This document shows, in pieces, positions 28,758 through 30,519 of a stretch of DNA of 38,960 nt (the first letter of the stretch is position 1; each line of letters begins with the position of its first letter). The position numbers and the translations under genes are program-made. Source of the DNA: Chloroflexota bacterium (GTDB lineage Bacteria > Chloroflexota > Dormibacteria > CF-121); NCBI GenBank assembly GCA_005889345.1, contig VBFR01000186.1, positions 1 to 38,960 of the forward strand, written 5' to 3'. Under the pieces are notes generated by a model that saw nothing but the letters and a program-made list of their open reading frames with translations, was not told the DNA's origin and did no database searches.

Positions 28758-29258
28758 TTAGTGCGACTCGGGTTTCCAGGTATCCCCCAGCACGCGGACT
28801 GGGCCAGCGAAGTGCTCGGCGATGACCGCTCGGACGGCTTCGGCAATGGGTGGGCGGAAATCCAGCCGGGGGAGCTGGTCCGCCGACACCCACTGCCAGC
28901 CGGCGAGCACAGGATCGCGAGGGTCGAGCACGGGCGCGACCCCCTCCCCTATCTCTGCCTGAAAAATGAGGTTGACGACGTGGCGGTCGGGCGCCAGGCT
29001 CTCGCAGACAATCACCAGGCTCCCGACGCGCGCCTCCAGACTGAGCTCTTCCTTCAGCTCGCGGCCCAGGGCCGCCTCCAGCGTTTCGTGGCCCTCGAGC
29101 CGGCCGCCGGGAAGCACCCAGTAGCGCTGGCCACGCTTGCGATGCTCGACGAGCAGGATCTGGCTCTGGCGGACGATGATGGCCGCCACGCGCAGTTGCG
29201 GTGTCACGGGGTTAAAGGCCTGCACCAGCGACGCGAGACTGACCAGCGATGTGCTCAT
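28758..29258 (-). CDS. Nudix hydrolase
   Basis: A 166-residue hydrolase of nucleoside diphosphates linked to other moieties. The Nudix box is visible as GGRLEGHETLEAALGREL followed by KEELSL, fitting G-x5-E-x7-RE-x2-EE. The N-terminal strand PQLRVAAIIVRQSQILLVEH and YWVLPGG are typical of ADP-ribose- or (d)NTP-acting members; substrate is not evident. A GTG at 29267 is in frame, but AAGGAG (29271-29276) is 12 nt before ATG 29258 and only 3 nt before the GTG, so ATG is preferred. It follows the LysM gene by about 20 nt on the same strand and probably shares its LexA-controlled promoter. Confidence 0.92.
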   Translation of the reverse strand: MSTSLVSLASLVQAFNPVTPQLRVAAIIVRQSQILLVEHRKRGQRYWVLPGGRLEGHETLEAALGRELKEELSLEARVGSLVIVCESLAPDRHVVNLIFQAEIGEGVAPVLDPRDPVLAGWQWVSADQLPRLDFRPPIAEAVRAVIAEHFAGPVRVLGDTWKPESH

Positions 29259-29279
29259 CGTAGTCACAGGCTCCTTGCG

Positions 29280-29576
29280 CTACTCGCGCGGCAGCTGCAG
29301 CGCCTGCCCGGGCGTGAGCAGCGGTGTCGACAGCCGGTTCGCCTCGAGGATCGCTGCCACGCGTGGCCGCGGATCACCACGGTAGTGGGCGGCGGCGATA
29401 CTCCAGACCGTATCCCCCGGCGCGACGACGACCCGGTCGCTGGCCTGCGGCCCACTGCCATATGCCAGCCGGCCGGTCGCCAGCACAAGGGCCGCAACGA
29501 GGACCACGACGCGGCCCCAGCCGCGGCGGCGCTGAGGTCGAGGATACCGGTGTCGAACTCCGTCCTGCCAGAACAT
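29280..29576 (-). CDS. YneA-like LysM membrane protein, probable SOS cell-division inhibitor
   Basis: A 98-residue protein: a basic N-terminus (RHRYPRPQRRRGWGR), one membrane segment (VVVLVAALVLATGRLAYGS), then a LysM domain (DRVVVAPGDTVWSIAAAHYR...LLTPGQALQLPRE) facing the wall. Size, layout and divergence from lexA match YneA of Bacillus, which delays division during the SOS response. ATG 29576 is chosen. It lies inside the first LexA box (29571-29582), whereas the open frame to TTG 29618 would run through two boxes and the promoter. A promoter at 29590-29618 with LexA boxes on and around it makes SOS induction very likely. The YneA role is by analogy only. Confidence 0.82.
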   Translation of the reverse strand: MFWQDGVRHRYPRPQRRRGWGRVVVLVAALVLATGRLAYGSGPQASDRVVVAPGDTVWSIAAAHYRGDPRPRVAAILEANRLSTPLLTPGQALQLPRE

Positions 29577-29582
29577 CTGTTC
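29571..29582. promoter_or_regulatory. LexA box 1
   Basis: GAACATCTGTTC fits the Gram-positive LexA box (GAAC-N4-GTTC) perfectly. It covers the ATG of the LysM gene. Its centre is exactly 29 bp from that of box 2. Confidence 0.85.
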
Positions 29583-29589
29583 GGTCAAG

Positions 29590-29618
29590 ACGCTAACACG
29601 AACAAGCGTTCGCGTCAA
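29590..29618 (-). promoter_or_regulatory. Candidate LysM (yneA-like) gene promoter
   Basis: Minus strand: TTGACG (29613-29618), 17-nt spacer, TAGCGT (29590-29595). The -10 is weak, but the spacing is ideal and LexA box 2 sits between the hexamers. The leader would be about 7 nt. Confidence 0.45.
29599..29612. promoter_or_regulatory. LexA box 2
   Basis: CGAACAAGCGTTCG: both half-sites CGAAC and GTTCG are perfect. It lies in the spacer of the LysM gene promoter, where LexA would exclude RNA polymerase. Confidence 0.88.
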
Positions 29619-29627
29619 TCCCTCGCC

Positions 29628-29641
29628 CGAACAAGTGTTTG
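29628..29641. promoter_or_regulatory. LexA box 3
   Basis: CGAACAAGTGTTTG has one perfect half-site and one with a single change. Its centre is 29 bp from box 2, and it overlaps the -35 of the candidate lexA promoter. Confidence 0.78.
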
Positions 29642-29668
29642 CAATGGGGCGAACAGATGTGCTAGGAT
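29639..29668 (+). promoter_or_regulatory. Candidate lexA promoter
   Basis: TTGCAA (29639-29644), 18-nt spacer, TAGGAT (29663-29668). Box 3 overlaps the -35 and box 4 fills the spacer, which fits LexA autorepression. The leader to ATG 29884 would be about 210 nt. Confidence 0.45.
29650..29663. promoter_or_regulatory. LexA box 4 (degenerate)
   Basis: CGAACAGATGTGCT has a perfect left half CGAAC, while the right half is only GTGC. Its centre is 22 bp from box 3, about two helical turns. It lies between -35 and -10 of the candidate lexA promoter. Confidence 0.55.
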
Positions 29669-29883
29669 GCCCCTGTTTTGGAGAAACGCGGCGGCCGGTC
29701 GACCGCTGGCTTTGCCCGAAAAATCGACCGATTCGGCCCGGAAATTACTGTGCTACCATGCTGTGATCGCGGTCTGAACCCCTCCTCTCCCCCCTCCCTG
29801 GACGCGCCGTTTGGGACGGCGCTGGGCGCGAGATGATCGGCTCTTGGCCGTCGACGACATCGGCGATAAAGGGAGGGGACGAT
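29669..29883 (+). other. Long lexA leader region
   Basis: About 215 bases separate the LexA boxes from the lexA start. They contain a polypyrimidine stretch around 29778-29802, a three-codon ORF (ATG CTG TGA, 29758-29766) and a second in-frame ATG at 29833 lacking a good Shine-Dalgarno sequence. A TACCAT box at 29754 could be an alternative -10. No clear terminator or riboswitch fold is seen. Confidence 0.35.
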
Positions 29884-30519
29884 ATGCCGGAACCGTTGAC
29901 CAGCAGGCAGCGGGAGATCCTGGAGTACCTTCGGTTTCGACAGAAGATCCGCAGTTACCCGCCGACCGTTCGCGAAATTGGCGAAGCGGTCGGACTCTCC
30001 TCCAGCTCCACGGTTCAGAACCACCTCAACACTCTGGAGCGGAAGGGCTACATCCGGCGCGATCCGACCAAGTCGCGCACCATCGAAGTCGTCGACATCG
30101 ACGAAATGCAGGCCAAACTCAGCAAGGTCGTGGCGGTCCCCCTGGTGGGCCGCGTCGCCGCCGGCCAGCCGATCCTCGCCGAAGAGAACATCGAGGATCA
30201 CCTGGTCCTCAGCCAGGAATTGGTCGGCTCGGACACGGCCTTCGCCCTCGAGGTCCATGGCGACAGCATGAAGGACGTCGGCATCCTCTCCGGTGATTTT
30301 GTCGTGGTCCGCCCCGGCAAAGATGCGCCCAATGGCAGCATCGTTGTCGCCCGGCTGGAAGACGACCAGACCAACGAGTCCACGGCCACCGTCAAGCGGC
30401 TCTTCCGCGAGGCCAACCGCGTGCGGCTGCAAGCGGAAAACCCGGCGTATGAGCCGATCTACAGTACGGCCGCCCAGCTCGAGGGCCAGGTGGTCGCGGT
30501 CGTGCGACTGCTGCGCTGA
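29884..30519 (+). CDS. lexA: SOS repressor LexA
   Basis: A 211-residue repressor-protease that shuts off SOS genes until RecA filaments trigger self-cleavage. The N-terminal winged helix (LTSRQREILEYLRFRQKIRS, PPTVREIGEAVGLSSSSTVQ) binds the boxes upstream. The cleavage site is A93-G94 in GRVAAGQP, the catalytic serine S128 in VHGDSMKD and lysine K171 in TATVKRLF. ATG 29884 is preferred over 29833 because homologues begin MPEPLTSRQREI and GGGAGGGG lies just upstream (29871-29878). It is divergent from the YneA-like LysM gene, as in Bacillus, and convergent with hflX. Confidence 0.97.
   Translation: MPEPLTSRQREILEYLRFRQKIRSYPPTVREIGEAVGLSSSSTVQNHLNTLERKGYIRRDPTKSRTIEVVDIDEMQAKLSKVVAVPLVGRVAAGQPILAEENIEDHLVLSQELVGSDTAFALEVHGDSMKDVGILSGDFVVVRPGKDAPNGSIVVARLEDDQTNESTATVKRLFREANRVRLQAENPAYEPIYSTAAQLEGQVVAVVRLLR

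Follow-up and report, generated by a model that had tools for sequence, protein, structure and literature searches.

A predicted four-box LexA operator between divergent lexA and LysM genes in a Dormibacteria genome of the Chloroflexota

The window analyzed here, a stretch of 38,960 nt from a Chloroflexota (Dormibacteria) assembly, contains lexA transcribed divergently from a small LysM gene, with a NUDIX hydrolase gene behind the latter. Candidate LexA boxes lie between lexA and the LysM gene; their mismatches were counted against the consensus GAACNNNNGTTC (GAAC-N4-GTTC type).

28758–29267, minus strand: NUDIX hydrolase gene (Pfam NUDIX, 2.4e-17), directly downstream of the LysM gene
29280–29576, minus strand: LysM gene, a YneA/ChiZ-like candidate division inhibitor of 98 aa, with one transmembrane helix followed by a LysM domain
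29571–29582: LexA box 1, GAACATCTGTTC, 0 mismatches, holding the ATG of the LysM gene (reverse complement GAACAGATGTTC)
29600–29611: LexA box 2, GAACAAGCGTTC, 0 mismatches, within the LysM promoter spacer (17 bp)
29629–29640: LexA box 3, GAACAAGTGTTT, 1 mismatch, its right half entering the lexA –35 element (TTTGCA/TTGCAA)
29651–29662: LexA box 4, GAACAGATGTGC, 1 mismatch, in the lexA promoter spacer, its right half also forming part of the extended –10 element TGCTAGGAT
29884–30519, plus strand: lexA, 211 aa (TIGR00498, E 3.1e-63; Peptidase_S24 and LexA_DNA_bind domains)

GAAC-N4-GTTC palindromes are thus present at both promoters, and their centers are separated by 29, 29, and 22 bp. The first-pass annotation had reported four boxes between the two genes with the same center distances, and both points hold; its starts for boxes 2 and 3 (29599 and 29628) were one base early, falling on the C of CGAAC, the correct ones being 29600 and 29629. 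Sites with at most one mismatch are as numerous in the whole window as in first-order Markov simulations (13 observed, simulated mean 13.25), but four of them fall within 92 bp. The densest 92 bp held one such site in 209 of 300 simulated windows, two in 90 and three in one, and a cluster of four was never obtained (0/300). The Poisson probability that a given site has three further sites of this kind within 80 bp is about 3e-6.

LexA scores 213 bits against TIGR00498 (cut-off 111), and the features of a self-cleaving LexA, the A93-G94 site, S128 and K171, are invariant in the alignment. An in-frame upstream ATG at 29833 (29833–29883) is open and in frame in 13/13 family loci checked, located 48–54 nt before the annotated start and reading MIG(S/A)W..., so that LexA may carry an N-terminal extension of 16–18 aa across the family (17 aa here). 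Such an extension has been demonstrated experimentally for LexA of M. tuberculosis (PMC2897130). No Rfam family matched the lexA leader at the gathering score.

A sigma-70 consensus scan at a strict threshold matched no promoter, and the promoter assignments therefore rest on conservation in the family alignment. The predicted elements are as follows.

29613–29618, minus strand: putative –35 element of the LysM promoter, TTGACG; TTGACG/TTGACA is kept in the family (f1) and TTGACA/TTGACT in two sister families (f3 and f2)
29590–29595, minus strand: putative –10 element of the LysM promoter, TAGCGT, extended TGTTAGCGT, with a 17-bp spacer
29639–29644, plus strand: putative –35 element of lexA promoter P1, TTGCAA, overlapping box 3
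29660–29668, plus strand: putative extended –10 element of P1, TGCTAGGAT, with a spacer of 18 bp here and 17 bp in relatives
29751–29759, plus strand: possible second lexA promoter P2, TGCTACCAT, conserved family-wide and lacking a LexA box

With these predicted elements, the earlier placement of the boxes is retained: box 1 on the LysM start codon (29576, minus strand), box 2 in the LysM promoter spacer, box 3 on the lexA –35 element, and box 4 in the lexA spacer. Transcription of the LysM gene is expected to start near 29583, which, with the ATG at 29576, would leave a very short leader. That boxes 3 and 4 each depart from the consensus by one base would be explained by their right halves, which may also serve as promoter sequence.

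The family alignment comprises 14 distinct loci, and all four boxes are carried by eleven relatives (L002–L012), as well as by L013 and L065. Half-site positions are invariant in 32/32 cases, compared to 17/44 positions between the boxes (Fisher P 3e-9, a value that overstates independence, as the aligned loci are closely related by ancestry), and 37/170 positions are invariant in the lexA leader. Within this single alignment the contrast between the predicted half-sites and the spacer is clear. The distances vary little, being 28–30 bp for boxes 1–2, 28–29 bp for boxes 2–3, and 21 bp for boxes 3–4 in the 13 other loci; only this genome has 22 bp at the last interval. The difference results from a one-base insertion in the G run at 29641–29651, either real or an assembly slip.

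The earlier annotation regarded four boxes as more than is usual at lexA. This does not stand, since the lexA promoter region of M. tuberculosis contains four SOS boxes, one for lexA and three for the divergent operon (PMC8151990; the discussion of that paper prints the divergent genes as Rv2019c-Rv2017c, and the legend of its supplement names the rv2719c operon). Hence, both the number of boxes and the dual control are precedented. The lexA/Rv2719c (ChiZ) region resembles our locus in its LysM gene divergent from lexA and its four GAAC-type boxes; it differs in the one/three split of the boxes and in the presence of a PafBC motif.

This precedent also supports a possible, though less probable, reading of our locus, in which the boxes would serve chiefly the LysM operon, lexA having a single one, and the LexA-free P2 would also produce lexA, making autoregulation weak. 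The TGCTACCAT element is consistent with it, being a conserved block, free of a LexA box, inside the otherwise diverged lexA leader. However, P2 lacks a conserved –35 element, and box 4, whose GAAC half is invariant, is located in the P1 spacer in 14/14 loci, where it would block lexA. Dual control of lexA and the LysM gene, the claim made for this region at first pass, is well supported, at the level of sequence, by the conservation of the boxes in the family and the class and by the occurrence of the motif upstream of other SOS-type genes (see below).

The LysM gene product matches Pfam LysM with E 1.8e-9. Against the YneA model NF010723 it scores 29.9 bits (E 3.9e-7), below the curated cut-off of 60 bits, and hence we term it YneA-like rather than YneA. 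In the AlphaFold2 model (mean pLDDT 75.7), a helix at residues 20–38, coinciding with the most hydrophobic stretch of the protein, is followed by the LysM beta-alpha-alpha-beta fold. Foldseek returned LysM domains as the best matches, none of them at E 0.001 or better, while the sequence profile of the protein matches the LysM part of 4uz2 with E 7.8e-14. The YneA-like nature proposed earlier is supported by this architecture, one membrane helix and then LysM, and by the position of the gene, divergent from lexA under LexA boxes.

SosA, YneA, ChiZ, and DivS are SOS-controlled inhibitors encoded beside lexA (PMC6851548). YneA works on FtsW by way of its membrane helix, and its LysM domain must also bind peptidoglycan (PMC13396833). 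The locus resembles the B. subtilis lexA/yneA arrangement in having a divergent lexA neighbor with a membrane helix and LysM and a CGAACN4GTTCG operator (PMC6851548, PMC13396833, PMC9578287), differing in the subthreshold score with the YneA model and in the adjacent NUDIX gene. S. aureus sosA and C. glutamicum divS similarly encode SOS-controlled membrane division inhibitors adjoining lexA (PMC6851548), the LysM gene here being a candidate inhibitor; SosA and DivS have no LysM domain, unlike the protein studied here.

It is unlikely, in our estimate, that the LysM gene encodes an SOS-induced cell-wall enzyme or wall-binding protein instead of a division inhibitor. Wall hydrolase activity has been reported for ChiZ (PMC6851548), and among PDB entries the LysM part of an endopeptidase is closest in sequence to our protein, but the protein has just 98 aa, comprising the membrane helix and one LysM, and no catalytic domain was found in it by the Pfam search or in the AlphaFold2 model.

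Among family loci that include enough flanking sequence, most have the NUDIX gene behind the LysM gene; it was not found near L010 and L011. The two genes are likely to be on one transcript, and the NUDIX gene is a candidate for an SOS nucleotide-pool enzyme. In sister family f2 it is divergent from the LysM gene, the LexA boxes being common to both. That the NUDIX gene starts within a LexA box, as seen in several loci of that family, was considered and rejected, as the frame is broken in L023, the frame from the first box is lost in L016, and the boxes of L020 contain no ATG.

We observe different layouts in the sister families. The divergon of f3 has three boxes, on the LysM ATG (GTACATNNGTTC), in the LysM spacer, and on the lexA –35 element (GAACAAAGGTTT), separated by mostly 23–27 bp (boxes 1–2) and then by mostly 27–28 bp; no equivalent of box 4 was seen in f3 loci. 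The LysM gene start is also inside a LexA box in L133 of family f4. In f2, a single box is found at lexA, near –77; the LysM gene is about 2.3 kb away from lexA, its own promoter holding two perfect boxes 32–33 bp apart, and thus the boxes follow the gene. The lexA loci read from other Chloroflexota classes have mostly a single box, and none of them has a LysM neighbor of lexA. The triple-box pattern was found in 10 of 400 genomes of the phylum, nine of them belonging to the same family and one containing an unrelated tandem repeat. The latter match (L074 in G294, an unrelated Chloroflexota genome) was rejected as an operator array because it is a 16-bp tandem repeat; its GAACGCMCGTTCAGTA units, with a 16-bp period, form an array with LexA-box-like palindromes.

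The spacing of the boxes is, judging by these comparisons, better explained by promoter geometry than by helical phasing, as the positioning of boxes on promoter elements recurs in the sister families while the distances differ (28–30, mostly 23–27, and 32–33 bp). The boxes track genes and promoter elements and not a fixed distance. The first-pass annotation had taken the exact 29-bp phasing as a sign of cooperative binding and had proposed conservation of the spacing in relatives as a check. This interpretation is not supported, the narrow range kept within the family being abandoned in its sister families. A phased array, in which LexA dimers would touch on evenly spaced boxes, load cooperatively and yield a sharper or tighter switch for both genes, is in our judgment highly improbable. 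In its favor, the distances of 28–30, 28–29, and 21 bp are held within the family although the spacer sequence has diverged, and the 21 bp between boxes 3 and 4 of the relatives (2.0 turns) equal the distance between the two boxes of the E. coli lexA operator, which otherwise differs, having CTG-N10-CAG boxes, dgkA as the upstream gene and no divergent division inhibitor. On the other hand, 29 bp correspond to 2.76 helical turns (approximately 274 degrees), so that neighboring dimers would be off a common face, one-base shifts are tolerated, the extra base between boxes 3 and 4 here among them, and the distances would be fixed by the geometry of the promoter elements under the boxes. Neither a common helical face nor a spacing kept across relatives was found.

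The regulon of the same genome was read from pattern matches and their flanking stretches in an assembly that is 88% complete. The flanked motif CGAACANNNGTTYG yields 15 forward and 6 reverse sites, compared to 2 and 1 for the reversed control. Perfect GAACNNNNGTTC sites number 41, several of which are inside ORFs or have no clear target, as expected from the 31 sites of the reversed control. The motif precedes other SOS-type genes, and LexA boxes are found upstream of an ImuA-like/ImuB-like pair, a DEAD helicase bearing an HRQ1-type winged helix, and three DUF222-HNH endonuclease genes (L140 1555, L144 1556, and L146 263). The latter recall the LexA-controlled 13E12-type repeats of mycobacteria. 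A full-length recA was not found in this 88%-complete assembly. That the boxes are a functionless similarity due to chance or repeats is so improbable as to be negligible, since the frequency of lone boxes with at most one mismatch in GC-rich DNA, about 13 per window, is set against the cluster probability, the complete conservation of half-sites, and the recurrence in sister families.

Taken together, boxes, conservation, gene content, and co-occurrence with SOS-type genes indicate, at the level of sequence, that the locus is a genuine, conserved SOS divergon, and the region is very probably an operator common to both of its genes, with four LexA boxes over two back-to-back promoters. We infer LexA binding, damage induction, and the division block. 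LexA dimers on boxes 1 and 2, in the start region and the promoter spacer, would keep the LysM gene off, and dimers on boxes 3 and 4, on the –35 element and in the spacer, would do so for lexA, the spacing of the boxes being set by the positions required on the promoters. Upon DNA damage, RecA-stimulated self-cleavage of LexA would free both promoters, and the LysM protein, anchored in the membrane by its one helix and binding peptidoglycan, would most likely delay septum formation until repair is done; renewed LexA would then reset the system. A bolder and improbable extension is that the LysM start codon would lie, throughout the class, in a LexA box of a near-leaderless transcript and, together with the three further boxes of this family, would create an unusually tight, late-opening division checkpoint with cooperating LexA dimers.

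The type of switch is already known from Bacillus and Mycobacterium; what is new here is the lineage. The open-access literature searched, outside which most subscription papers fall, contained no paper combining Dormibacterota with "SOS response", and the SOS regulon of the Chloroflexota/Dormibacterota group seems to be little described in it. The divergon of lexA and a LysM division inhibitor, known in Bacillota and Actinomycetota, would thus reach into the Chloroflexota, to a lineage of uncultured soil bacteria, where the conserved operator can be read across sister families, with the boxes apparently fixed on promoter elements and their spacing drifting freely.
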